This document shows, one piece after another, positions 50,558 to 57,638 of a stretch of DNA of 64,000 nt (its first letter is position 1; every line of letters starts with the position of its first letter). The DNA is from Rhodonellum psychrophilum GCM71 = DSM 17998 (GTDB taxonomy: Bacteria; Bacteroidota; Bacteroidia; Cytophagales; Cyclobacteriaceae). A program made the translations under genes and the position numbers. Below the pieces are notes generated by a model. That model ran no database searches and had not been told where the DNA came from. It worked only from the letters and a program-made list of their open reading frames with translations. The DNA is taken from contig NZ_KB906687.1 of assembly GCF_000381545.1 (NCBI RefSeq), positions 62,001 to 126,000 of the forward strand, read 5' to 3'.

Positions 50558-52072
50558 ATGATAAAGAAAATCCATTCAATAAAGTTCCATAAATTTAGTG
50601 TAGAAAGGCGAGTGGCTGTGATTTCTGTTTATAAAAAATTCTTGGTATTTATTGTTTCGGCTTGGATGATAATTCCAGTGGCTGACACCTATGCCCAAAT
50701 AAAAGAAGATACTGTCAATACTACAATCCTCGATATTCCGCAAAAAGTATTGATCAACAATATTTTCATCGTAGGGAACGAAAAAACACGCAAAAACATC
50801 ATTCTCAGAGAATTGAATTTGAAGCAAGGTCTTGTCTATGACTGGGAGGAACTTTTGGGAATGATAAAGGCAGACCAACAAAAAATCTATAATCTTCAAT
50901 TGTTCAACAATGTCGAGATCACCCCGCTTCTTACTGAAGTTGGACAGATTGAAATATTGGTTTCGGTCACTGAAAGATGGTATATCATTCCTTCCATTAT
51001 TTTTAATTTGGCAGACAGAAACTTTGCCGAATGGTGGACCAACCAAAACAGGGATTTTTCCAGAGTAGATTATGGTCTCCGCTTGGCCCATAACAACGTC
51101 GGCGGGCGAAACGAAAAAATGAAAATCAGCGCACAGTTGGGGTTCACCAAGGCCTTTGATGTCCTATACAGCATTCCTTATATTGACAAGAACCAACAAC
51201 ATGGCCTTGCTGTTCAGTTCAATTATTTCACCAACAAAACTGTCGCCTTAAGGTCTTTGGAAAACAAGCAGGTATTTTTTCAAAATGAAACCCAAGATGC
51301 TTTGAGGAAGAATACTGCAGCATTTCTTCGGTATACCTACCGTGGAAGTTTTTACAACTTTCATTTTGCCACTTTTGGATTTAACCATACGTGGGTAAAA
51401 GACGAAGTTCTCGAACAAAACCCAAACTACTTCTTGAATGAGCAGAACGACCTGAGGTATTTTTTGGCGAGCTATAATTTCAGGCACGATAGAAGAGACA
51501 ATAATGCATACGCCACAGATGGGGAGTCCCTCAATATCGGAATTACCAAATATGGCCTTTTCAGCGGTGATGGGATCAACGAAACCGAGCTTTCCTTGAA
51601 TGTAAACAAATACCAAAAATTCAACAATAAATTCCACTATGCTGCGGGTTTGTCATTGAATGCTTTTATGAGTCCGAAGCAACCCTATACATTGGTCAGA
51701 GGGATCGGTTACAAACCCAATTTCATCAGGGGGTATGAGCTCAACGTAATCGAAGGACAACAGACAGTTGTCCAAAAAAATAGCTTGAGATTCACGATAT
51801 TCGACTTGGGATATGATATTTCCAACATTATGCCCGTCGAAGAATTTTCTTATTTCCCCGTAAAGCTCTATTTCAGCGCCAATTTTGATCACGGATATGT
51901 CAAGGACAGGAATTTTATTCCCGAAAATGGGCGCTTGACCAACCAGTACCTTTACGGATATGGAGCAGGCTTTGATTTGGTGACTTTTTATGATTTGGTC
52001 CTGAGATTTGAATATTCCATCAACAGCCAAAAAGAAGGGACGTTTTTCATCAACTTCCTTGCACCCTTTTAA
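50558..52072 (+). CDS. BamA/TamA family outer-membrane protein
   Basis: 504 aa. Signal peptide (KKFLVFIVSAWMIIPVADTYAQ); a GTG at 50618 would be a neater start than the ATG at 50558. One POTRA-like domain (about residues 62-145: INNIFIVGNEKTRKNIILRELNLKQG) precedes a C-terminal barrel of about 16 strands with the RGIGYKPNFIRGYE loop, equivalent to the conserved VRGF/Y lid motif. With a single POTRA it is shorter than BamA and may be a TamA-like or two-partner-type translocator. Its substrate is unknown. Confidence 0.88.
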   Translation: MIKKIHSIKFHKFSVERRVAVISVYKKFLVFIVSAWMIIPVADTYAQIKEDTVNTTILDIPQKVLINNIFIVGNEKTRKNIILRELNLKQGLVYDWEELLGMIKADQQKIYNLQLFNNVEITPLLTEVGQIEILVSVTERWYIIPSIIFNLADRNFAEWWTNQNRDFSRVDYGLRLAHNNVGGRNEKMKISAQLGFTKAFDVLYSIPYIDKNQQHGLAVQFNYFTNKTVALRSLENKQVFFQNETQDALRKNTAAFLRYTYRGSFYNFHFATFGFNHTWVKDEVLEQNPNYFLNEQNDLRYFLASYNFRHDRRDNNAYATDGESLNIGITKYGLFSGDGINETELSLNVNKYQKFNNKFHYAAGLSLNAFMSPKQPYTLVRGIGYKPNFIRGYELNVIEGQQTVVQKNSLRFTIFDLGYDISNIMPVEEFSYFPVKLYFSANFDHGYVKDRNFIPENGRLTNQYLYGYGAGFDLVTFYDLVLRFEYSINSQKEGTFFINFLAPF

Positions 52073-52180: not shown

Positions 52181-53005
52181 ATGTCAATTCGGCAATTTGC
52201 ATATGTACTTTTATTTTTCTTTCCGTTAGGGGCATTTTCCCAAAACGGAACTGAGACCTTCCCCCGAGGGGCTCGAAGTATGGGAATGGGGAACACCCAT
52301 GTCACTCTTTTTGATGCTTGGAGCATCTTCAACAACATCGGCGGTCTGAGCAGGTTGACAGAATCGCAGGTCTTCGTAGGCTATGACCACTTGCTCAATC
52401 TCAACGAACTGACGACTCTGTCTGCAGGAGCGGCATTCAAAAATGATTTGGGTGCTTGGGGACTGGGAATTTCCAGCTTCGGGGGAGCCCAATTCAACCA
52501 GCAAAACATAGGATTGGGATTTTCCAATCAAATGGGCATCACCAGTATCGGAATCAAAATCAATTACTTTCAAACCAATATCGAAGGATTTGGAAGAGGC
52601 GCTGCTCCGGTTATTGAGCTGGGAGGAGTAGCGGAACTTGGGCCTCAATTGTTTTTTGGTGCACATATCTACAATCCTACCCGATCCAAATTGGGGAAAA
52701 ATGCTCCCGATCGACTGCCAACTGTAGTCAAGGCAGGGTTTTCTTATCGCCCTTCTGCCAAGATCATGGTCAACATGGAAGCTGAAAAGGAAATTCTTTT
52801 GGATCCAATGCTGAAAGTTGGGCTGGAATATAACCTAATGGATAGATTTTGGGCCAGAGCAGGCGTGAATTCCAATCCTCACAATCTCTTTTTTGGTATT
52901 GGCTTCAAGCCAAAAAAATTCCATTTGGATTATGCAATGACCCAAAACAATGCCTTGGGCAACACCCATCATTTCTCGTTTACCTATGCATTCACTAAAC
53001 AATGA
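52181..53005 (+). CDS. PorV/PorQ family outer-membrane protein
   Basis: 274 aa. Signal peptide to about FSQ (residue 21), then the family opening FPRGARSMGMGNTHVTLFDAWSIFNNIGGLSRL, followed by amphipathic strands (LGAWGLGISSFGGAQFNQQNIGLGFSNQMGITSIGIKINYF) of a FadL-like barrel. PorV and PorQ act in type IX secretion, but many paralogues have other roles, so a T9SS role is not shown. Its stop overlaps the next start as ATGA, so it works with the HhH-barrel protein. Confidence 0.85.
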   Translation: MSIRQFAYVLLFFFPLGAFSQNGTETFPRGARSMGMGNTHVTLFDAWSIFNNIGGLSRLTESQVFVGYDHLLNLNELTTLSAGAAFKNDLGAWGLGISSFGGAQFNQQNIGLGFSNQMGITSIGIKINYFQTNIEGFGRGAAPVIELGGVAELGPQLFFGAHIYNPTRSKLGKNAPDRLPTVVKAGFSYRPSAKIMVNMEAEKEILLDPMLKVGLEYNLMDRFWARAGVNSNPHNLFFGIGFKPKKFHLDYAMTQNNALGNTHHFSFTYAFTKQ

Positions 53006-55104
53006 AGGCGCAATATCCCCTTATGGTTTTGTTCCAATTGCTCTGTTTACAGGCTTTTGCCCAAAACTACCGGAAAGGAGAAATCGATATTGAGCAGTTT
53101 ATGGAGGAACTTTTTTCACTTCCCGAGACAGATGACAATTATGAAGATCTTTATGAAAGCCTGTTGCAGCTCTATCTCAATCCAATCAACCTGAATAAAA
53201 CAAATCCAGAGGAACTGAAATCCGTGTACGTGCTCTCTCCTATTCAATTGACCGCTTTTTTTGACTATAGAAAGAATTTCGGCGACCTGATTTCCATCTA
53301 TGAATTACAGGCCATTCCCGGATTCGATTTGGCCACGATCTATAAATTATTGCCTTTTGTGACTTTGGCCGATGGCAGCCACATTACCAACAAGCCACTT
53401 CTGGAAAGGATTTTGACCGAAAGGGAAGGCTACTTTATGCTGAGACAAAATCAGGTATGGGAAACCAGAAAAGGTTTCACTCCGCCCGACACACTCTCCA
53501 ACGGAAGGCTGACCAGCCGATACATTGGTGATCCCAATAATGTGTATGCCCGATTCAGGATTCAGCACAGTCGGGATTTCAGTTTGGGATTTACGATTGA
53601 CAAAGATCCGGGAGAAAAATTTGTCTGGGATCCGAAAACCAAAAGATATGGATTCAATTTCCTTTCCTATCATTTTACACTGTTCAATAAGGGGAAATGG
53701 AAAGCCATTACCTTGGGGGATTTTCAGGCACAGTTTGGACAAGGGCTGGTTTATGGCGCGGGGTTTTCCGTAGGAAAAGGTGCCGAAACCATCACCACGA
53801 TCAGGAGAAGCACCATTGGCCTGAGATCCTATACTTCAGCAATGGAATTTGGTTTTTTCAGGGGCGCTGCAGTGACCAGAAAAATAGGCGCAATAGATGT
53901 GACCATTTTGGCATCAAATGCACCTAGGGACGGGAACATTCAGGTAATGTTGGACACCTTGGAAAGAGAAGCGGCAACCATCAGTTCATTCCAAACCAGC
54001 GGCCTCCACAGAACGCAAACAGAAATAGCCTATAAAGATCAGATTCAAGAATTGAATCTCGGAGGAAACCTACATTATCAAAGTCCCGATAGAAATTTAC
54101 AGATTGGGATAAATTCTCTCTACACAAAATTCAGCAGGGAATACAAAAGAGCTCCCCAAGTGTATAATAAATTTGAATTTTCGGGAAAGGAAAACCATAT
54201 CCATAGCATGTATTACAGTTACAATTTCCAGAACTTCTTTCTGTTTGGGGAAACAGCCATTTCGCGAAGCGGCGGAAAAGGGACCGTAATGGGCATGATG
54301 AGCAGCCTGAGCAAAAGACTGGATTTTTCGGTCCTGTGGAGAAGGTTTGACAGGGATTTCCACACTTTTTATGGCAATGCATTTTCCGAAGGAACACGCC
54401 CCATCAATGAACGAGGGGTATATATGGGATTGAATTTCAAGCCCAATCCCCGCTACAACCTATTCCTCTATTATGACTATTTCAAATTTCCTTGGCTTCG
54501 GTATCGGGTATACTCCCCTTCTTCAGGCCAGGAATGGCTCGCAAGGTTCAGCTATTCTCCCTCCAGAAACATTCTTCTCTTCTTCCAAATGAGAGAGGAA
54601 CAAAAAGACAGAAACATCAGTGATCTTCCCCGTTTTCAGTCCACCTATCAACTTTCAACTGGCAGAAAAATGAATTATTTGATCAATTTGGATTATGCAA
54701 TAGACAAACAATGGTCCATCAAGTCAAGGATAATGGCAAGCAGCTTTGATTTCAACAACAAAACCACCAAGGGATTTGCTATCAGCCAAGATCTCAATGT
54801 GGACATGCAGAAGTGGCGAATATCCACTCGCTTTGCATTATTCGACACTGAAGACTATGACAATCGCCAATACGTTTACGAAAGAAATGTCCTCTGGGCC
54901 TTTTCCATTCCCGCACTCAACGGGCAAGGCATGCGCTATTACATACTGGGACAATATAAAGTGAGTCCAAAACTCACATTTTGGGCGAGGTTTGCCAGAA
55001 CCACCTATACAGACCGGGAATCCATTGGATCCGGCCTGCAGGAAATCTCCGGCAATAGACAAACAGAAACCACTTTTCAGCTCCGCTACCAATTCAACCG
55101 GTAA
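53002..55104 (+). CDS. secreted helix-hairpin-helix protein with large C-terminal beta-barrel
   Basis: 700 aa. Signal peptide (LMVLFQLLCLQAFAQ). Residues about 30-120 are helical and include tandem HhH-like motifs: NPINLNKTNPEELKSVYVLS and FGDLISIYELQAIPGFDLATIYKL, resembling ComEA-type DNA-binding modules. The remaining 570 residues are Tyr/Phe/Arg-rich alternating strands (FARFRIQHSRDF, RYNLFLYYDYFKF) ending TTFQLRYQFNR, as expected for an outer-membrane barrel of more than 20 strands. Function unknown. The ATG overlaps the PorQ-like stop by 4 bases. Confidence 0.82.
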   Translation: MKAQYPLMVLFQLLCLQAFAQNYRKGEIDIEQFMEELFSLPETDDNYEDLYESLLQLYLNPINLNKTNPEELKSVYVLSPIQLTAFFDYRKNFGDLISIYELQAIPGFDLATIYKLLPFVTLADGSHITNKPLLERILTEREGYFMLRQNQVWETRKGFTPPDTLSNGRLTSRYIGDPNNVYARFRIQHSRDFSLGFTIDKDPGEKFVWDPKTKRYGFNFLSYHFTLFNKGKWKAITLGDFQAQFGQGLVYGAGFSVGKGAETITTIRRSTIGLRSYTSAMEFGFFRGAAVTRKIGAIDVTILASNAPRDGNIQVMLDTLEREAATISSFQTSGLHRTQTEIAYKDQIQELNLGGNLHYQSPDRNLQIGINSLYTKFSREYKRAPQVYNKFEFSGKENHIHSMYYSYNFQNFFLFGETAISRSGGKGTVMGMMSSLSKRLDFSVLWRRFDRDFHTFYGNAFSEGTRPINERGVYMGLNFKPNPRYNLFLYYDYFKFPWLRYRVYSPSSGQEWLARFSYSPSRNILLFFQMREEQKDRNISDLPRFQSTYQLSTGRKMNYLINLDYAIDKQWSIKSRIMASSFDFNNKTTKGFAISQDLNVDMQKWRISTRFALFDTEDYDNRQYVYERNVLWAFSIPALNGQGMRYYILGQYKVSPKLTFWARFARTTYTDRESIGSGLQEISGNRQTETTFQLRYQFNR

Positions 55105-55181: not shown

Positions 55182-57638
55182 ATGAAAAAAACACTACTAT
55201 TGGCCCTATTGATCGTTTATAACGCTTTTTTGGGCTTTGGACAAACCTTGGACAAAAATAAATTTGTTAAGAATGAGGGTTTCATCCCTTTTTATACCCA
55301 AGAAGACAAAGGAAAGATATTCCTGGAAATCACCGACCTAGAAAAGGAATTTCTCTATGTCAATTCCCTTGCTGCCGGAATCGGATCAAATGACATCGGT
55401 CTTGACCGGGGTCAATTGGGAAGGACCAGGATTGTGGAGTTTAGGAAAGCAGGGAACAAATTGCTCTTGGTCCATAAGAATTACGACTTCCGAGCGTACA
55501 GTGACAATCCTTCCGAGGTAAAATCCGTGAAGGATGCATTTGCAGAATCGGTTTTATGGGGATTTGAAATCAGCGAAGAAGAAAAGGGTAAAATCTTGGT
55601 GGATGCCACGACTTTTTATCTTCAAGATGCCCATCAGGTAGCCGAAAAGCTAGGTTCGGCTAGACAAGGCACTTACAAAACTGAGCCTTCCAGAAGTGCC
55701 ATTTATTATCCCATGACCAAAAATTTTCCGCAAAACACAGAAGTGGAAGCCATGATTACCTTGACAGGAACACCGGCTGGAGCATATATCAGATCTGTGA
55801 CACCTTCACCCGAAGCGGTCACGGTTAGGCAAAGACATTCTTTTATTGAATTGCCTGATGAAAATTATCAGCCGAGGGAATTTGACACCAGGGCTGGATA
55901 TTTCAATATCAGCTACATGGATTTCACCAGTTCGATTGGAGAGCCAATGGTCAAAAAATTCATTTCAAGGCATCGCTTGGAGAAAAAAGATCCCAATTTG
56001 GCAGTATCCGAAGCAGTCAAACCAATCGTATATTATTTGGACAGGGGAACGCCTGAGCCAGTCAGGTCTGCTTTGATTGAAGGTGGAAACTGGTGGAATG
56101 AAGCTTTTGAAGCTGCAGGATTCAAGGATGCCTTTCGGGTGGAATTGATGCCGGAGGAAGCAGATCCTATGGATGTGCGCTACAATGTCATTCAATGGGT
56201 CCATCGCTCTACAAGAGGCTGGTCTTATGGCTCATCTGTAAGAGATCCCCGAACGGGTGAAATCATCAAAGGCCATGTTTCTTTGGGTTCACTCCGAGTA
56301 CGTCAGGATTTTTTGATTGCCCAAGGACTCTTGCAACCTTTTGAGGATGGGAAACCAAAAAACCCGAAAATGCTGGAAATGGCTTTGGCAAGACTTCGGC
56401 AACTCTCAGCGCATGAAATCGGGCATACCATTGGCCTGTCGCATAATTATTCCTCGTCTCCCAACAATCGCTCTTCGGTAATGGATTACCCCTACCCTTT
56501 TATCACCATGGATGCCAATGGGGAAATCGATCTTTCAAAAGCCTATGACGATAAAATTGGGGATTGGGACAAATTGGCCATTCGCTACGGATACGATGTG
56601 ATTCCCGATGGCCAGGAAGATCAAAGCTATCTCCAAAATTTGTTGGAAGACACCTATTCTGCAGGGCATACTTTTATTTCGGATATGGATTCGAGACATC
56701 CAAGTGGAAGCCATCCCACTGCACATCTATGGGACAATGGCGCTTCTGCATCGAAAGAACTGATGCGCATGATGGAGATCAGAAGTAAAAAAATGGCAAG
56801 TTTTGGATTGAACGCCATCGACCAAAACCAACCGGAGGCCTTAATGGAAGAGGTATTGGTGCCGCTTTATTTGATGCATCGCTACCAGTTGGAGGCTACA
56901 GCCAAATTGCTTGGTGGATTGGATTATACTTACAAGGTCAAGGGTGACAATCAGCGCACACAAACAAGACTAAATGGAGAGCAACAAAGGGAAGCGCTCA
57001 CCAGCCTAATGTATGCCCTAAACCCCGAACAATTGGCATTGCCGAAACATATCATTTCGATGATCCCTCCACGACCTTTGGGTTATGGCAGAAATCGGGA
57101 AACATTTCCTTCCAGAAATGGATTGAATTTTGATCCTTTAGCACCTGCTGAGAATGTGGTAGACATGGCCTTTGGTTTTCTGTTCGAAGCTGGCAGAGCA
57201 AATAGATTGCATCAGCAGAAATTATTCGACGTCAATCTCCCTTCATTCAGTGAGGTTTTAGATATAGTCTTCAAGGATATTTTTGACCGTAAATTTGAAG
57301 AGAATTACAAAGGAGAGATCAAGCTGATGACCGAAAATAAGTTGGTGGATAAGCTGATTGAACTTTCCAGGGATCCTCAGTCCACAGCCACAGTCAGGGC
57401 AATTGTCCGTAGAAAATTAAAGGATTTAGTGGTTGTATCCCAAGACCCTAAGTTCTCATTTCTATTGGGCAGAATCAATAGCCAAAACAATACCCTAAAC
57501 AACCACAGTCAATATCTTGCCGACAAGATCATCTCCTACTTGGACTTGCCCGAACAGCTCAACTCACCGAAGACCATAGAGATTCCGGATGGAGCACCGA
57601 TTGGAAGTGAAGAAATGGCATGCGACTTTGACCATTGA
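55182..57638 (+). CDS. secreted zinc-dependent metalloprotease (DUF5117/DUF5118 type)
   Basis: 818 aa with a signal peptide (LLLALLIVYNAFLGFGQ). The metzincin-type zinc site is HEIGHTIGLSH with His411, His415 and His421 and catalytic Glu412; VMDYPYPF downstream acts as the Met-turn. The N-terminal 350 residues form the domain that precedes the protease in this family (FVKNEGFIPFYTQEDKGKIFLEI; VMITLTGTPAG-like strand region). The substrate is unknown. It starts 77 bases after the HhH-barrel gene and may or may not share its transcript. A strong terminator follows. Confidence 0.92.
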   Translation: MKKTLLLALLIVYNAFLGFGQTLDKNKFVKNEGFIPFYTQEDKGKIFLEITDLEKEFLYVNSLAAGIGSNDIGLDRGQLGRTRIVEFRKAGNKLLLVHKNYDFRAYSDNPSEVKSVKDAFAESVLWGFEISEEEKGKILVDATTFYLQDAHQVAEKLGSARQGTYKTEPSRSAIYYPMTKNFPQNTEVEAMITLTGTPAGAYIRSVTPSPEAVTVRQRHSFIELPDENYQPREFDTRAGYFNISYMDFTSSIGEPMVKKFISRHRLEKKDPNLAVSEAVKPIVYYLDRGTPEPVRSALIEGGNWWNEAFEAAGFKDAFRVELMPEEADPMDVRYNVIQWVHRSTRGWSYGSSVRDPRTGEIIKGHVSLGSLRVRQDFLIAQGLLQPFEDGKPKNPKMLEMALARLRQLSAHEIGHTIGLSHNYSSSPNNRSSVMDYPYPFITMDANGEIDLSKAYDDKIGDWDKLAIRYGYDVIPDGQEDQSYLQNLLEDTYSAGHTFISDMDSRHPSGSHPTAHLWDNGASASKELMRMMEIRSKKMASFGLNAIDQNQPEALMEEVLVPLYLMHRYQLEATAKLLGGLDYTYKVKGDNQRTQTRLNGEQQREALTSLMYALNPEQLALPKHIISMIPPRPLGYGRNRETFPSRNGLNFDPLAPAENVVDMAFGFLFEAGRANRLHQQKLFDVNLPSFSEVLDIVFKDIFDRKFEENYKGEIKLMTENKLVDKLIELSRDPQSTATVRAIVRRKLKDLVVVSQDPKFSFLLGRINSQNNTLNNHSQYLADKIISYLDLPEQLNSPKTIEIPDGAPIGSEEMACDFDH

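Follow-up and report, generated by a model that had tools for sequence, protein, structure and literature searches.

A PorV-like barrel and a helix-hairpin-helix-bearing large barrel encoded as a conserved gene pair: a candidate two-barrel outer-membrane module of Bacteroidota and close relatives

The gene pair

The window (the whole stretch of DNA that was analysed, 64,000 nucleotides) is part of a 5.19-Mb genome of the Cyclobacteriaceae. The nearest named relatives are at 67-72% identity and, judged by them, the source genome appears to lie near Belliella, Aquiflexum, and Cognataquiflexum. Two genes of the window encode a small and a large barrel protein (Table 1), both of which have signal-peptide-like N-termini without a lipobox. 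A preliminary description of this DNA had presented them as two open reading frames coupled by an ATGA, and their coordinates and overlap are borne out by the sequence.

Table 1. Features of the gene pair (positions are those of the window)
Feature	Position	Strand	Basis
FadL-like outer-membrane protein of the PorV/PorQ superfamily, 274 aa, barrel of 14 predicted strands	52181..53005	+	Open reading frame, NCBIfam, model, structure matches
Putative signal peptide of the small PorV-like protein, residues 1-21	52181..52243	+	Sequence MSIRQFAYVLLFFFPLGAFSQ, without a lipobox cysteine
Stop and start codons overlapping as ATGA	53002..53005	+	Sequence; TGA stop 53003-53005, ATG from 53002
Helix-hairpin-helix-bearing large outer-membrane barrel protein, 700 aa	53002..55104	+	Open reading frame, profiles, model, distribution
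Putative signal peptide at residues 1-21 of the large barrel protein	53002..53064	+	Sequence MKAQYPLMVLFQLLCLQAFAQ; Q21 conserved
Helix-hairpin-helix region with degenerate motif, residues 61-121, predicted to be periplasmic	53182..53364	+	HHH_3 23.6-28.5 bits; predicted helices; hairpins VYVLSP, IPGFDL
Barrel region at residues 143-698 with 24 long predicted strands and the best-conserved positions of the family	53428..55095	+	Model and alignment

The small barrel

The AlphaFold model of the small barrel (pLDDT 93) has 14 strands, a count that, like that of the large barrel, is taken from the model without coordinates in hand. Its best solved match is the PorV chain of the T9SS translocon (entry 8gl6, TM 0.77), followed by FadL, so that the model and the structure matches agree on a FadL-like 14-stranded barrel. 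Chains of the BAM complex (9hiv and 9n2d) are weaker structural matches than PorV, and a sequence search against solved structures gave no match for either protein of the pair. The NCBIfam profile PorV_fam (NF033709) scores 69.7 bits on the small barrel, under its cut-off of 90, and is matched by 52 of 53 aligned small-barrel proteins at E <= 0.001. The protein had been called PorQ-like in the preliminary description, which is right insofar as it is a FadL/PorV-type barrel of the superfamily that it shares with the T9SS protein PorQ. It is not PorQ itself, as its score with the PorQ profile (NF033711), 29.1 bits, lies below the cut-off of 220 and the true PorQ of this genome is encoded by another gene on another contig (G000:C6:147232-148197, 303 bits). 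A profile of the small-barrel family gives scores of 26-38 bits with the PorQ and PorV-like proteins of this genome. In Cyclobacterium qasimii (L097:5148-5651 and downstream) the small barrel gene is split over two frames, possibly by a frameshift or an assembly error.

The fold could also suggest that the pair handles lipids or hydrophobic molecules, which the FadL-type barrel would hand to or receive from the large barrel. FadL and, after PorV and FadL, TodX/TbuX are among the closest solved structures of the small barrel, whose N-terminus moreover carries an NNxAGLA-like motif that we take to resemble the FadL hatch. However, PorV and BamG share this fold and are not described as lipid transporters, so that the fold leaves the question unsettled, and no lipid genes recur near the pair. 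We consider lipid handling improbable.

The large barrel

The large barrel model (pLDDT 83.5) contains 24 long strands starting at residue 143; they were counted by hand, and the count depends on stretches where the model is weaker (residues ~250-270, 310-350, and 540-550). Foldseek returned only generic large barrels at a TM of ~0.4, including MtrB, TonB-dependent receptors, the FimD usher, and AlgE, and identified no specific family. The family alignment reveals conserved motifs within the barrel region, namely GDFQxQFGQGL, KDxGE, HRTxxE, and NExGxY. HhH-like helices are predicted in front of the barrel at residues 69-73, 80-93, 99-104, and 110-119; the model thereby contains both the helix-hairpin-helix (HhH) fold and the barrel that had been proposed for this protein.

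The HhH region and DNA uptake

ComEA-like HhH motifs had been described behind the signal peptide and in front of the barrel. An HhH region is indeed located there, but its motif is degenerate. Pfam HHH_3 (cut-off 27) matches residues 61-121 with 23.6 bits by hmmscan and 28.5 bits in the genome search; the match is stronger in relatives, reaching 55.3 bits in one of them (L050), and extends to 41 of 54 aligned large-barrel proteins at E <= 0.001. In the window, the hairpins read VYVLSP and IPGFDL in place of GIG. Among 62 diverse members, the GxG expected of a phosphate-contact hairpin is found in none of the first hairpins and in nine of the second, and among 54 closer sequences the corresponding numbers are 0 and 1. 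The mean charge of the HhH region is -3.3 in these 54 sequences and -1.3 in the 62 diverse members. As the ComEA-like repeats of the same genome have charges of -4 and +1, charge alone does not set the region apart from them, and the hairpin motif carries more weight.

At least two members (L057 and L058) lack an alignable HhH segment, which a misplaced start codon could explain in one of them. In closer relatives the identity to the window is 50% in the HhH region and 44% in the barrel. With a conservation on a par with that of the barrel, the HhH region has a role; judging from its residues, it probably binds no DNA, and docking of a protein fits best. The region lies N-terminal to the barrel and, following the usual topology of outer-membrane barrels, is most likely periplasmic rather than exposed at the surface. 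The earlier suggestion of DNA or nucleoprotein handling at the cell surface is disfavoured by this placement, by the lost GxG, and by the slightly acidic average charge.

The same suggestion is further weakened by the presence of a separate ComEA-like protein in the genome. ComEA-type HhH proteins (TIGR01259, PF12836; for example, RA0C_RS02645 of Riemerella and PGN_0421 of P. gingivalis) resemble the large barrel protein in that a signal peptide is followed by an HhH_3 region. In contrast to them, the hairpins of the large barrel protein are degenerate and a barrel of 24 strands comes after them; its comEA score of 22 bits is below the cut-off of 152. The Riemerella HhH protein is distinct from the large barrel protein and ComEA-like. 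Its likely counterpart, judged by architecture, is a 236-aa protein with HhH repeats encoded elsewhere in the source genome (L002:982-1692; G000:C13:45339-46046). Of 40 genomes tested, 36 have a ComEA-like HhH match, whether or not they encode the large barrel; the match is clear in almost all tested Bacteroidia and weak beyond this class. Moreover, no competence genes were recognised among the recurrent neighbours of the pair in the loci of relatives.

These data bear directly on the reading that the large barrel is an outer-membrane DNA-uptake channel with the HhH region acting as a ComEA-like periplasmic DNA ratchet. Besides the HHH_3 and weak comEA matches, the charge of the barrel would be in its favour: the barrel region is strongly basic in the window (net ~+25), unlike other outer-membrane-like proteins nearby, and it is positive in most members (median +16), a charge that would be compatible with a polyanion. 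It is, however, acidic in several lineages, and charge was set aside as a pointer to a polyanion substrate because its sign flips between them. A further point in its favour is that, in P. gingivalis, the outer-membrane step of DNA uptake has been stated to be unclear (PMC11532111). DUF5689, a domain of a Riemerella protein that is essential for transformation (PMC8459023), is nearly mutually exclusive with the large barrel among 49 Bacteroidia genomes, with strong matches in 23 of the 25 genomes that lack the large barrel and in 4 of the 24 that have it, as if one had taken the other's place. This contrast is confounded by phylogeny, and it may reflect replacement or phylogeny only. Taken with the loss of GxG from hairpin 1 and its rarity in hairpin 2, the slightly acidic region, the separate ComEA-like protein in the source genome and most relatives, and the lack of recognised competence genes as recurrent neighbours, DNA uptake by the large barrel is a weak reading, and we regard it as distinctly unlikely. 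It nonetheless makes the large barrel a concrete candidate for the outer-membrane step of DNA uptake, to be tested or excluded.

Distribution and pairing in relatives

The large barrel is found in 155 of 198 genomes of the phylum sample and 199 of 247 genomes of the class sample, nearly always as a single copy. The groups to which the unnamed sampled genomes belong are assigned by inference, with the exception of family f16. The FMO protein is a marker of green sulfur bacteria and is encoded in all eight f16 genomes tested, which identifies f16 as green sulfur bacteria; all 43 genomes of this family have the large barrel. Conversely, the groups that lack it include all sampled genomes of f7 (probably the Flavobacteriaceae), which do have the T9SS.

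After de-duplication, 161 large-barrel loci were obtained, in 131 of which the gene of the small barrel directly precedes that of the large barrel on the same strand, whereas 28 lack it at that position and two leave no room. The pair is consequently adjacent in 131 of the 159 loci with room to judge, although these loci include close relatives and the counts are not independent events. The exact overlap of -4 occurs in 45 of the 131 paired loci. Among 80 named loci, 67 of the 76 that can be judged were scored as paired by script, and three more (L076, L084, and L104) are also paired but were missed by the script because their start codons had been placed too far upstream. No small partner adjoins the large barrel in the Dyadobacter loci. 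A large barrel without a detectable small partner is furthermore found in most green sulfur bacteria and in five other genomes (G190, G002, G007, G041, and G162).

Outside of the green sulfur bacteria (n = 155), both barrels are present in 103 genomes, the large barrel alone in 9, the small barrel alone in 7, and neither in 36, as tallied by hand with genomes not among the matches listed counted as absent. For the co-occurrence of the two barrels in this set, Fisher's test gives p = 7e-20 without correction for phylogeny. The other neighbours of the pair differ between families and are mostly unrelated housekeeping genes; as they change while the two barrels stay, selection seems to keep these two together. 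Conservation of the pair across families and classes exceeds chance, and the co-occurrence in relatives that had been proposed as a check of the preliminary description is widespread.

Relation to the T9SS

The leading rival to our interpretation is that the pair is an accessory of the T9SS. The closest solved match of the small barrel is the PorV of the T9SS translocon, and the small barrel is present in 110 of 154 genomes with SprA but only 8 of 44 without it, a contrast that comes mostly from one family, the green sulfur bacteria. The genomic neighbourhood points in the same direction. Whereas the neighbours of the pair in Bacteroidia are mostly unrelated housekeeping genes, porD is the main recurrent partner outside of this class, where it divergently adjoins the small barrel gene in most sampled families (L041, L042, L046, L056, and others). 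The neighbouring PorD belongs to PF16119 (DUF4835) and scores 229 bits with NCBIfam T9SS_PorD, above the cut-off of 170. PorD is among the components of the extended T9SS translocon (PMC10994853, PMC8754138). In some genomes (G180, G156, and G160) the link between porD and the small barrel is kept though the large barrel is located elsewhere or was not found.

The large barrel argues against this reading. It is present in all 44 genomes without SprA and in 111 of the 154 with SprA, being missing from the other 43, which include all sampled f7 genomes. Its distribution across the 198 genomes hence does not follow SprA as that of a T9SS component should; the small barrel comes closer. In five loci of genomes without SprA (L043, L044, L045, L064, and L165) the large barrel occurs without an adjacent small barrel. 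In addition, the small barrel scores under the cut-offs of both PorQ and PorV, and the genome has its own PorQ. As the SprA contrast of the small barrel rests mostly on one family, the accessory reading is kept as the leading rival, which we judge unlikely. The preliminary description's alternative of a modified secretion partner stays plausible.

A candidate two-barrel module

We tentatively favour, at a confidence short of probable, the reading that the pair forms one outer-membrane two-barrel module of Bacteroidota and close kin, in which, by analogy with known systems, the PorV-like barrel would be docked on a large channel. The 700-aa protein would be this channel-type barrel of ~24 strands, with a periplasmic N-terminal part whose degenerate HhH would dock another protein or the protein itself, and not DNA. 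The 274-aa FadL/PorV-type barrel would pack against it as a gate or cargo-holding partner, and the module would move or assemble an envelope component across the outer membrane. What is observed comprises the pairing of the two genes, their conservation and co-occurrence, the predicted folds, the loss of the hairpin motif, and the independence of the large barrel from SprA; from these we infer physical contact between the barrels, the periplasmic placement of the HhH region, channel activity, and export rather than import. No study of the pair or description of its function was found in open-access papers, in agreement with the preliminary description, which knew of none.

The analogy lies in fold and pairing. 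SprA-PorV of the T9SS translocon likewise combines a FadL-type barrel of the PorV family with a very large barrel. The SprA barrel has 36 strands, whereas the large barrel described here has ~24 predicted strands, matches no SprA family, carries an HhH region, and is found in genomes without SprA. In PorV-SprA, the FadL-type subunit sits on the large barrel (PMC8754138; entry 8gl6), and BamG with BamA is another case of a FadL-family barrel bound to a different barrel (PMC12611786). BamA-BamG is conserved across the same superphylum as our pair, for which a similar contact is suggested by analogy. BamG and BamH are, however, reported to be universal in Bacteroidota and apparently essential (PMC12611786), while entire families lack our pair, whose large barrel has no BamA match. 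If the PorV-like partner does gate the large barrel, this would be a third case of a FadL-type protein on a large barrel and would point to a general design rule.

A bolder reading, which we hold to be unlikely, is that, next to BAM and the T9SS, Bacteroidota and kin have in this pair a third machine for translocation across the outer membrane. It would serve as a large channel dedicated to export or uptake and gated by a PorV-like protein of its own, and the large barrel would predate the split of the green sulfur bacteria from the rest. In one version, the pair would supply the missing channel for DNA uptake through the outer membrane, and in Flavobacteriaceae-like lineages another pair would have taken its place. 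A nearly single-copy large barrel that occurs in ~80% of the sampled Bacteroidota and every sampled green sulfur genome, and for which the open-access papers searched describe no function, marks a gap in the envelope biology of this phylum.

Other genes beside the pair

Just upstream of the pair, at 50558-52072, a gene encodes a short protein of 504 aa that is BamA/TamA-like and has a single POTRA domain; the gene occupies this position mainly in relatives within the Cyclobacteriaceae. Directly downstream, at 55182-57638, lies the gene of a secreted Met-zincin-type protein (DUF4953, DUF5117, and DUF5118), which keeps its place beside the pair in Belliella and Algoriphagus relatives and not farther out. 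In several families outside of Bacteroidia, a protein combining HEAT repeats with a cyclophilin-type prolyl isomerase (L042:11253-13271) recurs beside porD and the pair.
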